DNA from: Thraustochytrium sp. TN22
Taxonomy: Eukaryota; Sar; Bigyra; Thraustochytrida; Thraustochytriidae
Length of the DNA: 64,000 nt
Direction of reading: 5' to 3'
Assembly (NCBI GenBank): GCA_013306675.1
Contig: JABLUY010000033.1
Location: 1-64,000, forward strand
Shown: one piece after another, positions 11,954 to 58,980 of the stretch
Numbering within the stretch: position 1 is the first letter of the stretch
Layout of the letters: each line of letters begins with the position of its first letter
The notes under the pieces: generated by a model
Database searches by the model: none
Told to the model about the DNA's origin: nothing
What the model saw: only the letters and a program-made list of their open reading frames with translations
Program-made: the position numbers and the translations under genes

Positions 11954-14900
11954 ATGAGTGACCAGGCACGTCAGCGTCCCAAGCCAACGTGCGAGGTCAT
12001 CAACATCCTCGAACTGTGCGGGATTGGGGAGACCGAGAATAGTGACACCCCCACCCCAAACGTTCGACTCCTTTGCATTCCAAAGGAGCAGCGGCCTTAC
12101 GAGTGGAGCGCTACGAGCGCCAAAGCATTCTTCAAGGCGCTTTGGGGTGAGCTTCAGGACAGCTCTTCTGCATCGACCTCGGCCTGGTACCGACTCGGGA
12201 CGTTTGAGTGCTTCCTTGACGACAACTCCAACGTCAACGATGGCTGTGAGACACTCCAGGTCTTTGACGGCCAACAGCGACTTATGACGTTCTTCCTCCT
12301 CTGCCACGCCATCTGCATTTTCTTCGATGGAATCGTGAAGAACTCTGCCTCGTACAACACCGCGAGAGTAAAGGCGGCCTTTCGTAAACTCCGACGGATT
12401 CTCTGCGTGACGGCGAACGCTGCTCCGAAGTGGGAAAGTCATTCTCGCATCAAGTGGGAGTCGATGGACAACAACAACGCGGTCGTCCTGCTGGACAAGC
12501 TGTGCCTAGGGCTCTACAGAGGTGAAGATCACCCCGAGAAAGACGGCCCCGAGGTCGTCGATCTCGAGCAGGATGTGTGGGAGTCCCTGAGGCCCTTAGA
12601 TCTGTGGGAAGCAGCCCAGCAACGACAGGCTGGAAGCATCGTAAAGGCAAATGCTGCCCACGACAGTTGCCGGAGCCTGTTTGAGAACCTAGAGGCGATC
12701 GTTCGCGCGATCTACGAGATGGCGACCAACAACTACGTGGTGGAGCTGTCGGGATCCCGGGAAGCCCTCGACCCCTCGCAGCAGCTTGCTGACTTCGTCT
12801 TGAACGTTCTCTGCTCCAGGGTTCTGGTCAATCTGACCTTGGACAACGACCTGATTTGCGCACTGGATTTTTTTCGGCAAGCCAACGCCTTTCGTTCACT
12901 GGAATTCACTCCCGAGGACCAGCTGCGGACCAACATCATCAACCTCCTGAAGCCGCTCAGGGAAGCAGGGTCAGCTGGAAGTCGCGCCACAAGTCGCGCC
13001 ACAAGACAGGGGAACCCGGGGCCAAACTCCGAAGCCGGGAACAGCGCCAGAGCAAACGATCGCGCGAGGACGAACGCAGCCTTTCACAAGGCTCGCAATG
13101 TTCTGAGAGGGTACTCTCGTGAGGTGCGGACAGAGCTCATGAACAATGCGATTCGTGCCGCTCTCGTCGTGCGAGTAGATCTCCCCGACTTGCGAGTCTA
13201 CCGAGACGACGCCAAGCCCATGAACGTGCTCGAGGACTACATCATGCGTTGCATTCGAGACGATCGAAGAAAGGCCGTCAGAACCCACATCCCCGAGATG
13301 ATCGAGGAGATTTGCGACAGCCTGAAGCGCTTTCTGGTTCTCAAGCTGCCGGACGACAGGCAGCTTGACTGGCCAAACAACGGAGAGGGCGAGACTCCTC
13401 ACGAGCACAGGGCTATTCTTACTCGGATGACCTGCATGCGGGAGTTCTCACAGCACTTTGACGTCGTGCTCGTGGCGCTGTGGAAGATCATCGAAGGCGT
13501 GCCTGACACAATCTTCTCAAACGCAGTCTCGAAGCATGCCTGCTGCGCTGCGCTGACCCGCTTCATCGAGCGCTTCTGCGTTGCGAAGCTCCTCGCGCGC
13601 ACCCCATGGACCGAGCTGGACTTTCACCTTGCCGCGCACAAGTTCTTGGCGGCGCTCAGGGTCATCAGAGACACGAGACAGGTGCCACGAAGGGTGGCGA
13701 GCTTGCTCGTGCTCGTCCGCGACCATTTTGGTATCTCCAACAAGGATCGCGTTGCACTCCTCGCCAGCCTCTCGCGTCCTAACCTGTACGAGAAGCTCAA
13801 GCAAGGCGAGCGCCAAGGCTTGACCTACCTTCTTCGCATTGCGAACGCCGAGTCGACGCCAGGACTGATTCGCGGTTTGAGTTCTAGCGATTGGAAGGAG
13901 CCTGTGCAGCTGGAGCACGCGAACCCGCAATCTAAGCGTGACAGCTTCCCAGAGCCTGCACCAGATGGGCTTGGCAACATCTACCTGCTGTCAACATCTC
14001 TCAACAGGGTCGCCAGGGCCAAGGACTTCAAGGACAAAAACGTCGACATCATCGAGAACCACGGGCTCGTCCTGGAGAAGCACACGGGCATGCATTACTT
14101 TGCCAAGCACAACGTCTACAAGGAGGGTCGGCAAGCTTGGACGAAACAAGAGGGCTGCCGCCTCTTCGTAGACCAGCTGAAAGCCCTCGCAAAGGCTCTG
14201 CGCCTCCATGCGCCGTACGAGTTCGAGATTGCTGAGGACCTGAACCTCAGTAAACTTGTCCAGGTCTCCGCCAAAGACGGCACGGATTGGCTCGCCAGAC
14301 TCGGATCAATCTTCGAGGACGTATTTCGCAAATACCACTGCGGAGACTCTTCCTCCTCTTCATGGACAAGCCTTGTGGAGGCGTTCGGCATGCTCGAGGA
14401 TTACCGCGTCGTGGTTCCTGGCAGCCACAACAACTCTACTGCGTACCAGCGGAAGGATTCCGGGGTGTGGGACGAGGAGCGCTACTGCGCTGGTATGGTC
14501 GACCTCGACGACCGGCACGGCATAGACGGCATCCCAGATGCTATCTACCGGAGCGAATTCGCCGTGATGCTTCGCCAGCTTCCCGTCAAGGACGGTGACG
14601 AAGCGCGCTACACCAGCTTCTGCATCTTGACCCTGGTGGACCAAGCCCGAAATGGTGACATGATCGCATACCGCATGACCCGAAAGTACTTCAACGAGAA
14701 GTACCCAGAGAAGTGCCGCGAGAAGTGCCGCGAGATGGAGCTACCGTTCGGCATCTGCCCCAACTTCGGTGCATGGAGGGTGACTTCGCTCGGCAATCTG
14801 GCCGATGAGATCCCGTCAGATGGACCTGCACTACCGAACGGCTTTTCTGCGGAGTTTCAGATCGCGCCCCAAGTCATGTTCAAGGTCATGGTCGACTCTG

Positions 14901-15715
14901 CTTCTGAGCGCATTAAGCTGCTCGGCGGTGGGGAGGAGCACCGGGCATCATCGGCATATGATGCTATGGCCTGCATCATCACCGGACTGCGGAAAATGAA
15001 GAAAACAGAACTGGTGTCCAGAGTCAACGAACTCGCCAATGAGAGTGACTGCGCAAAGCTTCTCGTCTACGGCCGTCCTGAGGTCCAGCAACGCATCCAG
15101 GCGGAAATAGACAAGCAGGCGAAGCAGAAGAAGCGCAAGCGCCAGCACCGAGACAACGAGGGGCGACAGGCAACCAGAACTCGCCTTCCACAGGCAGCCG
15201 GACCTAAAGAGCCGCAGCCCGACCCACCCGCTCCTCCTGCCATCTCCGACACTGACGTTGCGTCCGCTGAGATACTTGACCCGGTCTGGTCCAGTAGCTG
15301 CGAAAATGTCCAGGTGCTCAACTTCGGAGATTGTGGCCCGGGTGCAGACCCCTTCATTTTGAAACGGCGCAATCCAGTCGGGAACGTTCACAACCGCATT
15401 ATTCCCCTCGGTTTCAAGTGCTGTATCGGCGGTCTCATCTTCAGAGCGGACAGAAAGTCCTTCGTCGTTATCGAAAAGTCGACTGGCCGTGTGTTTTCGG
15501 GAGGCACGCCAATGTCCGCATGGAAGAGTCTTCCAATGAAACCCGCTGGTGTAGCGTTCGAGCAGCTCGGGTTTGGTCATGAGGAAGCTCAGGCGGAACT
15601 GCGCAGACTGCTCCCGGGCGTCGCAGAACAGAGGTACCCGTGGCCCAACGAACGACGAGTGCCGGCTCGAACGTACAAGCTTTCGGAACTCAGGCGGGAC
15701 GAAGACTCCACATAA
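11954..15715 (+). CDS. GmrSD-like protein: DUF262 + DUF1524 (HNH-type) + NLS + FY-rich (FYRN/FYRC)-like C terminus
   Basis: 1253 residues, ATG at 11954. Residues about 36-130 match DUF262, the ParB/sulfiredoxin-like NTP-binding half of GmrSD: IPKEQRPYEW (Gln46, Arg47) and FDGQQRLMTFFLL (Asp105-Arg109). Residues about 640-705 match DUF1524, the His-Me/HNH nuclease half: LEHANPQS (His655) and LGNIYLLSTSLN (Asn675, Asn684) then FKDK. In bacteria these halves form a modification-dependent (type IV) restriction enzyme cutting glucosylated or otherwise modified DNA. Here about 500 helical residues separate them. A basic cluster KQKKRKR near residue 1057 should be an NLS. Residues about 1140-1228 (IPLGFKCC, SGRVFSGGTPMSAWKSL, FEQLGFGHEEAQAELRRLLPG) resemble the FYRN/FYRC module of MLL/trithorax and JmjC proteins. 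Of the first 44 codons only 29 end in G/C, unlike neighbours. A nuclear nuclease reading modified or chromatinised DNA is inference. The DUF262/DUF1524 calls are firm; FYR is probable. Confidence 0.82.
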   Translation: MSDQARQRPKPTCEVINILELCGIGETENSDTPTPNVRLLCIPKEQRPYEWSATSAKAFFKALWGELQDSSSASTSAWYRLGTFECFLDDNSNVNDGCETLQVFDGQQRLMTFFLLCHAICIFFDGIVKNSASYNTARVKAAFRKLRRILCVTANAAPKWESHSRIKWESMDNNNAVVLLDKLCLGLYRGEDHPEKDGPEVVDLEQDVWESLRPLDLWEAAQQRQAGSIVKANAAHDSCRSLFENLEAIVRAIYEMATNNYVVELSGSREALDPSQQLADFVLNVLCSRVLVNLTLDNDLICALDFFRQANAFRSLEFTPEDQLRTNIINLLKPLREAGSAGSRATSRATRQGNPGPNSEAGNSARANDRARTNAAFHKARNVLRGYSREVRTELMNNAIRAALVVRVDLPDLRVYRDDAKPMNVLEDYIMRCIRDDRRKAVRTHIPEMIEEICDSLKRFLVLKLPDDRQLDWPNNGEGETPHEHRAILTRMTCMREFSQHFDVVLVALWKIIEGVPDTIFSNAVSKHACCAALTRFIERFCVAKLLARTPWTELDFHLAAHKFLAALRVIRDTRQVPRRVASLLVLVRDHFGISNKDRVALLASLSRPNLYEKLKQGERQGLTYLLRIANAESTPGLIRGLSSSDWKEPVQLEHANPQSKRDSFPEPAPDGLGNIYLLSTSLNRVARAKDFKDKNVDIIENHGLVLEKHTGMHYFAKHNVYKEGRQAWTKQEGCRLFVDQLKALAKALRLHAPYEFEIAEDLNLSKLVQVSAKDGTDWLARLGSIFEDVFRKYHCGDSSSSSWTSLVEAFGMLEDYRVVVPGSHNNSTAYQRKDSGVWDEERYCAGMVDLDDRHGIDGIPDAIYRSEFAVMLRQLPVKDGDEARYTSFCILTLVDQARNGDMIAYRMTRKYFNEKYPEKCREKCREMELPFGICPNFGAWRVTSLGNLADEIPSDGPALPNGFSAEFQIAPQVMFKVMVDSASERIKLLGGGEEHRASSAYDAMACIITGLRKMKKTELVSRVNELANESDCAKLLVYGRPEVQQRIQAEIDKQAKQKKRKRQHRDNEGRQATRTRLPQAAGPKEPQPDPPAPPAISDTDVASAEILDPVWSSSCENVQVLNFGDCGPGADPFILKRRNPVGNVHNRIIPLGFKCCIGGLIFRADRKSFVVIEKSTGRVFSGGTPMSAWKSLPMKPAGVAFEQLGFGHEEAQAELRRLLPGVAEQRYPWPNERRVPARTYKLSELRRDEDST

Positions 15716-16193
15716 AAAGTCAAACGTAAAACTTCCATGTGCAATTTGCGCGTCTCGGGATGTAGTGGTGCTGGATGAGGTCGGGCGGTGGCTCTACTCT
15801 CAGCGCAAGCGGCAGACCGGGCGTCGCCTTCACCTGCGCGGGAGGATGCAACGAGAAGCTCGTGCCTGGCATTGTTGTAGATACGTTTTGCCGAAGGTAC
15901 AGCAAAGGAACGTGTTTCGATTGATCTTGACCGCTGCGATGCGACTGCGCAAACCACATCATCGCTGCCGTCGAGAGGTGGTCGCCGCGAGGTGGTCGCC
16001 GCTGACGAGTAGAATAGGGCTACCTAAGGTCGAACTTGACAGCTGCAGGCTTCTCTGCCATGGGAAAGTACAAGTCGTCCCCCACCTTCACCTGGCGGCA
16101 TCACATTCCAGCAAGACAAACATCTGCTGCAACATCGCAGGACGAACCCACTTGAGAAGCAATGCCTCAAGACTTTTTCAAAGCCTCCCTCCA
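15716..16193. other. Spacer downstream of the GmrSD-like gene
   Basis: No gene called. Short open segments have coding-like flavour (for example CAGGCNEKLVPGIVV near 15836-15880 on the plus strand), but they are interrupted by stops in every frame and match nothing I recognise. It may be debris of a gene that accompanied the GmrSD-like gene. Confidence 0.3.
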
Positions 16194-16489
16194 TCACATG
16201 TTTAGAGTCCGAGTTAAAGCATCTGACCGCGGCGGCAGCGCTGGACTTGCATCGGATTTGCGCTCGAGCAGCCGCCGTCCATAGGAACGTCGTGTCGGCG
16301 AACCGCTGCTCATCTCATTCATCTTGCATCATGTCCCTCAATCACACGTGGAGAGTCCGAGTCAACGCACCTGATCGCGGCGGCAGCGCTGGACTTGACA
16401 GTGGGTCGGATTCGAGTTCGAGCAGCCGCCGTCCATAAGAATCTCGTATCGGTGAACCGCTGCTCATCTCGTTCGTGCTGCATCATGTC
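16194..16489. repeat. Two tandem copies of a ~145-150 bp unit before the second importin gene
   Basis: Copy 1 (about 16194-16338) and copy 2 (about 16339-16489) share gagtccgagt, then gcggcggcagcgctggactt, gagcagccgccgtccata, gaaccgctgctcatctc and gcatcatgtccc in the same order, with scattered substitutions. They are a diverged direct tandem duplication lying 290-580 bases upstream of the importin-like ATG, so they are probably promoter or leader DNA. Confidence 0.85.
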
Positions 16490-16602
16490 CCAAGAAAGCC
16501 GAGGCGAGGCGACCGCGGCCGGCCGTCCCCACCTCCCGCAATCAAGCGGAACTCCAAAATTCAAATCGCCGCCCGGAGCCAGCAGCGCGGCGCTAACGCG
16601 GC

Positions 16603-57399: not shown

Positions 57400-58980
57400 T
57401 CAGAGCTCGTCCATGGTGATGTCGAAGGAGTCGTCGGACTCGAAGCCTTCGTCGTCCTCGTCGTCGGCGGCCTTGTTCTTGGGGGCGCGGGGCGGGGTGG
57501 CCGCAGAGGCGGCGGCGTCGTCGTCCTCGTCGTCGTCCTCGTCGTCGTCGCCGCCGCCGCGCTGCTTCTTCTTGGACTTCTTGCCCTTGCCGCCCTTGGA
57601 GGCCTGCTTCTGGAGGTACTTCCAGAGCTCCTTGCGGGCATCGCCAGCGGCGCACATGCGCTTGACGCGCGGGTCCTTGATGGGGTTGCCGTCGAGCTTG
57701 AGGACCTTGATCTTCTTGAGCTGGGAGAGATCGGGCGGGATCTCGGTGAAGTTGTTGTTCTCGGCCATGAGCTCGGTGAGACCGGTGAGCTGCGCGACCT
57801 CCTCGGGCAGCTCCTCGATCTGGTTATGGGATACGATGAGGTCGTGCAGGCGCGAGAGGGCGTCGAAGTCCAGGTCGAGCTTGGTGAGCTTGTTCTGCGA
57901 GAGGTTGAGGATGGTGAGCGCCTGCATGCCGCGCAGCGGGGCGAGGTCAGAGATTTGGTTTCCGGAGGCGTCGAGAACCTCGAGCGAGGCACACTTGCTG
58001 AGCGTGGAAGGAAGGACCTGAAGCTGGTTGCGCGCAACCTCAAGCACCTTGAGCTGGCGAAGCTTGCCGATCTCGTCGGGCAGCACGGTGAGCGCGTTAT
58101 CACTGAGGATGAGCGTCTGAAGCTTGCGCATGCGCGCGAGCATGGAGCCGTCCAGAGACGTCAGGACACCGGGCGCAAGGCGCATGGCGAGGCGGTTGAT
58201 GGTGCGCAGGTACCAGAGCGCTGGGTCGACTCCGCCGGCGAGGCCCGGAGTGCCCTCGGGCTCATCGCGCACGACGCTGATCTCGTGCACGGCCTGGAGC
58301 TTCTCGACGGACTCGACGACCTTGGCGACCTCGGGCCAGACAGGCGCGGGACCCGGCGCGCCGTCATCCTCCGTCTCGTCCGCCTCGTCCTCGTCCTTGC
58401 CATCGTCGGCCTTACGCTGGCCGCGGCGCTCCTGCTCCTGGAGGAGCTTCTTCTTGAGCTTGCTGCGCTCACGCGAGGTGAGGCCGTCGCTGATGACGTT
58501 GCCGTCCTCGTCCTCGATGACCTCGTCCTCGGACTCGTGGAGCCACTCGTCAAAGAGCTTGGTGACCTCGGTCTTGCCGCGCTCCTTGGCATGGTCCTGC
58601 GCCGTCTTGCCATCGTCGTCCTTCATGGTGAGCTTGGCGTCCTTGAGCAGCAGGCTGTACACGCACTCGGCGCGGCCAGCGGCGGCCGCCATCATGAGCG
58701 CCGTGCGGCCGTTGTCGTCGCGGATGTCGATCCAGCCCTTGCGGCGCAGCTCGCGGCGCCGCTCATAGTAGTCGAGCAGCGTGTCGAGCGACTTGACCTT
58801 GCCGTTCAGCGCCGCCAGCATGATGCTCGTCAGGCCGGCCTCGTTGCGCGTCTGCGCCTGCATGCCCGTGTTCACCAGGCCTGACCGCACCTCGCTCTGC
58901 TTCTCCGTCATGATGGCCTCCCAGAAGGCCGCCTTCTTCTGCTCGTACGTCATCTTGTCCTTCTTGTGAGCCTTGCCCAT
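57400..58980 (-). CDS. Ankyrin-repeat and leucine-rich-repeat protein
   Basis: Probable intracellular scaffold; no specific function recognised. 526 residues from MGKAHKKDKMTYEQK. Residues about 20-150 hold ankyrin repeats (NEAGLTSIMLAALNGKVKSL, DNGRTALMMAAAAGRAECVY, DDGKTAQDHAKERG). A charged coiled segment with Lys/Glu runs follows (about 165-215). Residues about 270-455 hold seven or so LRRs of the L-x-x-L-x-L-x-x-N-x-[IL] type (LQTLILSDNALTVLP, LKVLEVARNQLQVLP, LTILNLSQNKLTKLD, LHDLIVSHNQIEELP, IKVLKLDGNPI). The tail is Lys-rich and then Asp/Glu-rich, ending ESDDSFDITMDEL. Codons are strongly G/C-ended. It is convergent with the calpain companion, with under 50 bases between stops. Confidence 0.87.
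   Translation of the reverse strand: MGKAHKKDKMTYEQKKAAFWEAIMTEKQSEVRSGLVNTGMQAQTRNEAGLTSIMLAALNGKVKSLDTLLDYYERRRELRRKGWIDIRDDNGRTALMMAAAAGRAECVYSLLLKDAKLTMKDDDGKTAQDHAKERGKTEVTKLFDEWLHESEDEVIEDEDGNVISDGLTSRERSKLKKKLLQEQERRGQRKADDGKDEDEADETEDDGAPGPAPVWPEVAKVVESVEKLQAVHEISVVRDEPEGTPGLAGGVDPALWYLRTINRLAMRLAPGVLTSLDGSMLARMRKLQTLILSDNALTVLPDEIGKLRQLKVLEVARNQLQVLPSTLSKCASLEVLDASGNQISDLAPLRGMQALTILNLSQNKLTKLDLDFDALSRLHDLIVSHNQIEELPEEVAQLTGLTELMAENNNFTEIPPDLSQLKKIKVLKLDGNPIKDPRVKRMCAAGDARKELWKYLQKQASKGGKGKKSKKKQRGGGDDDEDDDEDDDAAASAATPPRAPKNKAADDEDDEGFESDDSFDITMDEL

Follow-up and report, generated by a model that had tools for sequence, protein, structure and literature searches.

A GmrSD-type core fused to FYR-like modules in a paralog family of the thraustochytrid Thraustochytrium sp. 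TN22

A 64,000-nucleotide stretch of the genome of Thraustochytrium sp. TN22 (contig JABLUY010000033.1, positions 1 to 64,000; hereafter the window) encodes a protein in which a core of the GmrSD type is joined, in one open frame, to two C-terminal modules resembling the FYR domain of chromatin proteins. The protein belongs to a family of paralogs in the same genome. We give about an even chance to the reading that the gene product is a eukaryotic enzyme of the GmrSD type, remodelled for work on chromatin, which would act on foreign or misplaced nuclear DNA. A first-pass annotation of the window had noted the fusion of a GmrSD core to FYR-like sequence in one eukaryotic protein. This observation is confirmed by the domains, motifs and module profiles described below, and its interpretation is partly supported. 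The annotation had treated the fusion as a single case; the fusion is real, and it is shared by several proteins with two or three modules each. The features of the window copy are as follows.

11954..15715, forward strand: GmrSD-FYR fusion gene, one exon, a single open frame of 1253 amino acids plus stop
12071..12397, forward strand: GmrSD_N / DUF262 (ParB/Srx-like NTPase) domain, best stretch residues 40–148 (PF03235)
12266..12280, forward strand: DGQQR motif, residues 105–109, predicted nucleoside triphosphate (NTP) binding/hydrolysis
13811..14068, forward strand: GmrSD_C / DUF1524 (HNH, His-Me finger nuclease) domain, best stretch residues 620–705
13910..14038, forward strand: predicted catalytic motif LEHANPQ ... 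LGNIYLLSTSLN ... KDFKDK (E654, H655, N675, N684)
14750..15103, forward strand: first FYR-like module, residues 933–1050, absent from the first-pass annotation
15128..15142, forward strand: basic run KKRKR resembling a nuclear localization signal (NLS), residues 1059–1063, in the linker between the modules
15275..15712, forward strand: second FYR-like module, residues 1108–1253, at the C terminus

The N-terminal part of the core scores above the Pfam cut-off for GmrSD_N (PF03235, 38.9 bits against 33.2), and the PADLOC models Orf5, HEC-06 and SspE match the same DUF262 part (best E 6.9e-12). DGQQR and the QRPYEW motif upstream of it (residues 46–51) both align with nine GmrSD proteins. Alignment with GmrSD proteins also places the E/D-H...N...N nuclease motif, as defined for this family in the accessible part of Machnicka et al. 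(2015, PMC4619093), C-terminal of DUF262 in the window copy. The signature residues that had been named earlier, D105–R109, H655, N675 and N684, are all present at those positions.

A scan of the genome (37.9 Mb, 453 contigs; copy counts are lower bounds) revealed at least six family members: the window copy, the tandem pair C439a and C439b, and single copies on C314, C188 and C277.

L020:2292-6800: C439a
L019:2527-7374: C439b
L022:2327-6406: C314
L021:3649-8163: C188
L023:1-7179: C277, its frame read as far as the edge of its sequence stretch, final codons missing

The six long open frames share one domain order, consisting of DUF262, a middle part, DUF1524, a linking region and repeated C-terminal modules. 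Five of the six genomic matches exceed the GmrSD_N cut-off, and DGQQR is present in five paralogs, with DGRQR in C277. The GmrSD_C cut-off of 23 bits is exceeded by C314 (27.4 bits) and C439a (23.1 bits), the remaining four copies being unlisted at E ≤ 1. In the alignment with GmrSD proteins the window copy, C439a and C314 have all four E-H-N-N residues, the last Asn is replaced by Lys in C439b, and the catalytic His is absent from C188 and C277; part of the family therefore probably works without cutting. In the core, C439a is 64% and C314 32% identical to the window copy, and the GC content at third codon positions (GC3) is 0.82 in C188 and C277 versus 0.70–0.72 in the other four copies. The six copies formed one clade (100/100) in a tree that also included nine of the 18 proteins recovered with the core profile described below. 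A single origin is likely on this evidence, short of proof because the tree has nine outgroup rows and several long branches.

Membership of the window modules was assessed with profiles built without window sequences. Residues 936–1049 scored 59.9 bits against the held-out profile of the M1 modules of the other paralogs, the best of 2000 shuffles reaching 3.3. For residues 1108–1253, hhalign comparison with the Mx modules of the other paralogs gave a score of 38.7 (probability 86, 93 columns), with 100 shuffles reaching 20.2 and 39 other stretches of the same protein reaching 13.6. Against the FYR set the same residues scored 25.9, aligned over the FYRC half, above all 100 shuffles (maximum 17.0) and all 39 other stretches of the protein (maximum 21.2). 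By hmmsearch they scored 3.5 bits, thus not above shuffles (up to 8.2), and in the comparison of this second module with the other M1 modules 2 of 100 shuffles scored equally high. Judged by these profiles, the C terminus is classed as FYR-like and residues 933–1050 as an additional, better supported module. The FYRN/FYRC-like C terminus of the first-pass annotation is upheld insofar as hhalign recovers its relation to the modules, and it is displaced by the upstream module as the best-supported one. The direct results for residues 1135–1230, on which that assignment had been staked, were negative or inconclusive, and support for the region comes via homologous modules. The predicted basic NLS near residue 1057 corresponds to the KKRKR run. 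Across the six proteins there are 13 occurrences of the pattern K[KR]x[KR], eight of them near modules and the other five in other parts of C439a and C439b; of the module-associated ones, those of four copies lie between modules 1 and 2, those of C277 follow module 2, and that of C188 falls where module 2 begins.

Across the six copies the modules vary in spacing as well as number, C188 and C277 having three each, and the M1 and Mx profiles match each other with a probability of 96. For modelling we took the module most like FYRN, module 3 of C188, and the model, which used 11 of the 13 aligned modules, predicts an FYR fold similar to 2WZO. The 13 modules omit module 1 of C314, which is interrupted by a Ser/Gly run. 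In Pfam, module 3 of C188 gave the single FYRN match among the 13 (14.9 bits against a cut-off of 24, E 0.02); LPD3, Stork_head, MOEP19 and DUF1786 matched once each (E 0.14–0.26) and were taken as chance. None of four module consensus sequences matched FYRN, one of them matching CfrBI at E 0.19, and the 13-module profile did not recover 2WZO from the PDB sequences. In a first profile comparison that set the modules against three FYR regions from this genome, P was 0.006 and the hhalign probability 6. In shuffle tests of four groupings, no shuffle of 100 scored as high in two, and one and two of 100 did so in the others, including freak scores above 130. A hidden Markov model of five FYR sequences found nothing above 3 bits across the six proteins. 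A match on C40 (E 0.2) was dropped, the frame resembling a protein kinase by eye. The last module of C314 stops after the FYRN-like half, and visual inspection of the three downstream frames revealed no continuation that ends in FG..VQ. Among the other FYR genes of this genome, C110 has FYRN and FYRC, and L026/L027 (C237, C46) have FYRN over the cut-off and no FYRC match.

The ratio of nonsynonymous to synonymous change (dN/dS) in comparisons of the window copy with the C439 pair, for which synonymous change (dS) is partly saturated, is 0.19–0.53 in residues 37–760 (DUF262 0.19–0.20, middle part 0.35–0.37, DUF1524 0.44–0.53) and 0.44–0.46 in residues 761–930. Within the tandem pair, dS is 0.15 in the core, 0.95 in the first module and 0.03 in the second, and DNA identity in 90-base bins is 0.76–0.98 across the core, 0.58–0.76 over the first module and linker, and 0.93–0.99 for the second module together with the 3' flank. 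The mosaic pattern suggests that the first module was exchanged or has diverged fast. The two copies are dissimilar 5' of the core (DNA identity 0.44–0.49). C439b runs on in frame upstream for 296 residues (L019:6487-7374, reverse strand), which weakly match a leucine-rich repeat family (PF12799, 22.3 bits, cut-off 27); C439b is possibly an LRR-GmrSD-FYR protein, or this stretch may be an unspliced neighbour.

Homolog searches that scored the 8000 candidates sharing most words returned none for the window protein at E ≤ 0.001 and none for the C-terminal part of C188 at E ≤ 0.1. A profile of the six cores found 18 proteins (best E 3.6e-11), 17 of them with both GmrSD domains; the four carrying organism names are bacterial, and 17 of the 18 are 25–36% identical to the core over 9–17% of its length. 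A mixed profile matched the DUF262 proteins 9JFL and 20YV, SspE (6JIV) and BrxU (7P9K) in the PDB, which is no independent test of the window copy because this profile holds nine other sequences besides our six. In genome contigs at least 39 loci, labelled bacterial, were matched. Viral contigs gave no match with the window protein and seven matches around DUF262 with the family alignment, and Foldseek against viral models gave none at E ≤ 0.001.

BrxU and related fused GmrSD type IV enzymes (7P9K; PMC8565348) likewise carry DUF262 and then DUF1524 in one chain, with both the DGQQR and the E/D-H...N...N motifs, but the window protein is about twice as long (1253 versus 587 residues), has diverged far and, encoded in a eukaryote, bears a basic NLS-like run besides its FYR-like modules. 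SspE, a phosphorothioate-sensing DUF262-DUF1524 nickase, has the same two domains, and its PADLOC models reach at best E 1e-7 on the DUF262 part, whereas its C terminus is unlike that of the window protein. According to the portions available of the BrxU paper and of a review of SspE (PMC10952713), the DUF1524 nuclease, which cleaves or nicks modified DNA, is governed by the binding and hydrolysis of NTP in the DUF262 pocket. Many bacterial GmrSD homologs are fused to other domains, as stated in excerpts of PMC12707154. Eukaryotic homologs were already known, in 3 of 613 sequenced organisms, from Machnicka et al.; Thalassiosira oceanica is named there in a figure legend, and the accessible part of that paper mentions no FYR modules. 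The window copy differs from the FYR domain of TBRG1 (2WZO) and from FYRN/FYRC of KMT2D in being too diverged for the Pfam families, and its family differs in having two or three modules per protein on a nuclease core rather than, for example, a methyltransferase. No open-access paper was found to name both 'FYRN' and 'GmrSD' (subscription papers lay mostly outside the search), and, among the papers listed, titles and abstract openings of open-access work on GmrSD in eukaryotes, or on DUF262/DUF1524 with eukaryotes and transfer, contained no such fusion; the first-pass annotation likewise knew of none described.

FYR proteins reside in chromatin complexes. TBRG1, for instance, follows INO80 on nucleosomes, as the accessible part of PMC10954555 reports. 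By analogy with BrxU and SspE, the simplest joint reading would be a chromatin-directed, NTP-gated nuclease. The DUF262 domain would bind and hydrolyse NTP and work as a switch, the DUF1524 HNH domain would cut or nick DNA, and the added FYR modules would replace or supplement target recognition by docking the enzyme to chromatin or to one of its complexes. The enzyme would act in the nucleus on foreign or misplaced DNA, such as that of a virus or transposon, and C188 and C277 may be non-cutting partners or decoys. We propose more tentatively, and hold to be rather unlikely, a chromatin-based form of eukaryotic restriction, in which a nuclear GmrSD multigene family would recognise its targets through FYR modules that diversify by recombination and rapid divergence; active members would cut the DNA of viruses or transposons, regulated by the inactive ones.

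Several results count against a chromatin-directed nuclease. GmrSD_C (PF07510) scores 14.8 bits on the window copy, under its cut-off of 23, and neither the whole window protein nor its modules match Pfam FYRN (PF05964) or FYRC (PF05965), for which reason we class the modules as FYR-like and not as curated members; of the four Pfam families named earlier for checking, PF03235 is the one that exceeds its cut-off in the window copy. Residues 933–1056 alone, compared with the FYR set, were equalled by 66 of 100 shuffles. Structure prediction of the C terminus, another check suggested earlier, gave a poor model of residues 1108–1253 (predicted local distance difference test 64), with no meaningful fold match and FYR not among the listed rows. 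Between C439a and C439b, dN/dS is 0.66 in the core and 1.47, from few changes, in the second module; constraint is thus evident when the window copy is compared with this pair, and weak between the two young tandem copies. K[KR]x[KR] is a common motif, found elsewhere too in two copies, and its distribution is weak evidence for nuclear import. We know of no direct DNA-recognition role of FYR domains, so target recognition by the modules is a guess. The genome holds at least one DNA cytosine methylase-like gene; self DNA may therefore be methylated, and a modification-dependent cutter would have to spare it. A Tet/JBP search of the genome gave no match, with the search controls equally silent and the result hence uninformative.

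The loss of the catalytic His in two of six paralogs, and of the last Asn in C439b, makes a domesticated regulator a live alternative, if a doubtful one. GmrSD would then keep NTP switching and DNA binding but not restriction, the FYR modules would place the protein in a histone-modifying or remodelling complex, and catalysis would be dispensable or lost. Retention of the DUF262 motif throughout the family, as DGQQR or DGRQR, fits this view, as does the occurrence of FYR domains in the chromatin regulators TBRG1 and KMT2D. However, the full E-H-N-N set in three paralogs as diverged as the window copy, C439a and C314 would be unexpected if cutting were useless throughout. We consider it improbable that the nuclease acts outside the nucleus, on cytoplasmic virus factories or as a suicide nuclease, with the FYR modules serving protein-protein contact or oligomerisation. 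The variable number and spacing of the modules and the weak leucine-rich repeat match in C439b, of a kind seen in interaction or sensor proteins, would suit such a role, but a basic NLS-like motif, albeit a common one, lies near the modules in all six copies.

Very improbable, and disfavoured, is a bacterial gene remnant or prediction artefact, that is, a frame open by chance in GC-rich DNA with a C terminus from another gene. The GC3 of the fusion gene (0.71) is compatible with this, four of the five other measured window frames having 0.80–0.93 and the fifth, a calpain gene, 0.69. However, the existence of six long paralogous frames that agree in domain order and in their terminal modules, and a core dN/dS below 1, speak against it. 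So do eukaryotic neighbours such as an Arm-repeat protein, the calpain and an ABC transporter (weak ABCA1-type match). Of eight neighbouring window frames scanned with Pfam, seven belong to eukaryote-type or general families and one is without a family, which supports the placement of the gene among ordinary eukaryotic genes.

Just 3' of the fusion gene, at 16186–16491, lie imperfect direct repeats of 86 nt and 64 nt that are 86–88% identical at a spacing of ~150. Elsewhere in the window, the reverse strand encodes a 526-residue protein with ankyrin and leucine-rich repeats (57403–58980) and contains a 7398-codon open frame (30659–52855).

Type IV restriction is regarded as a defence of prokaryotes. 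A family with six or more copies that keeps the predicted catalytic residues in some members and has gained a chromatin-type domain would make nuclear restriction of foreign DNA by a bacterial-type nuclease testable in a eukaryote. To our knowledge the molecular role of the FYR domain is poorly known, and the family extends the partners of this domain by an enzyme class. The fusion may point to a defence against foreign DNA in the nucleus, or to a repurposed gene regulator.
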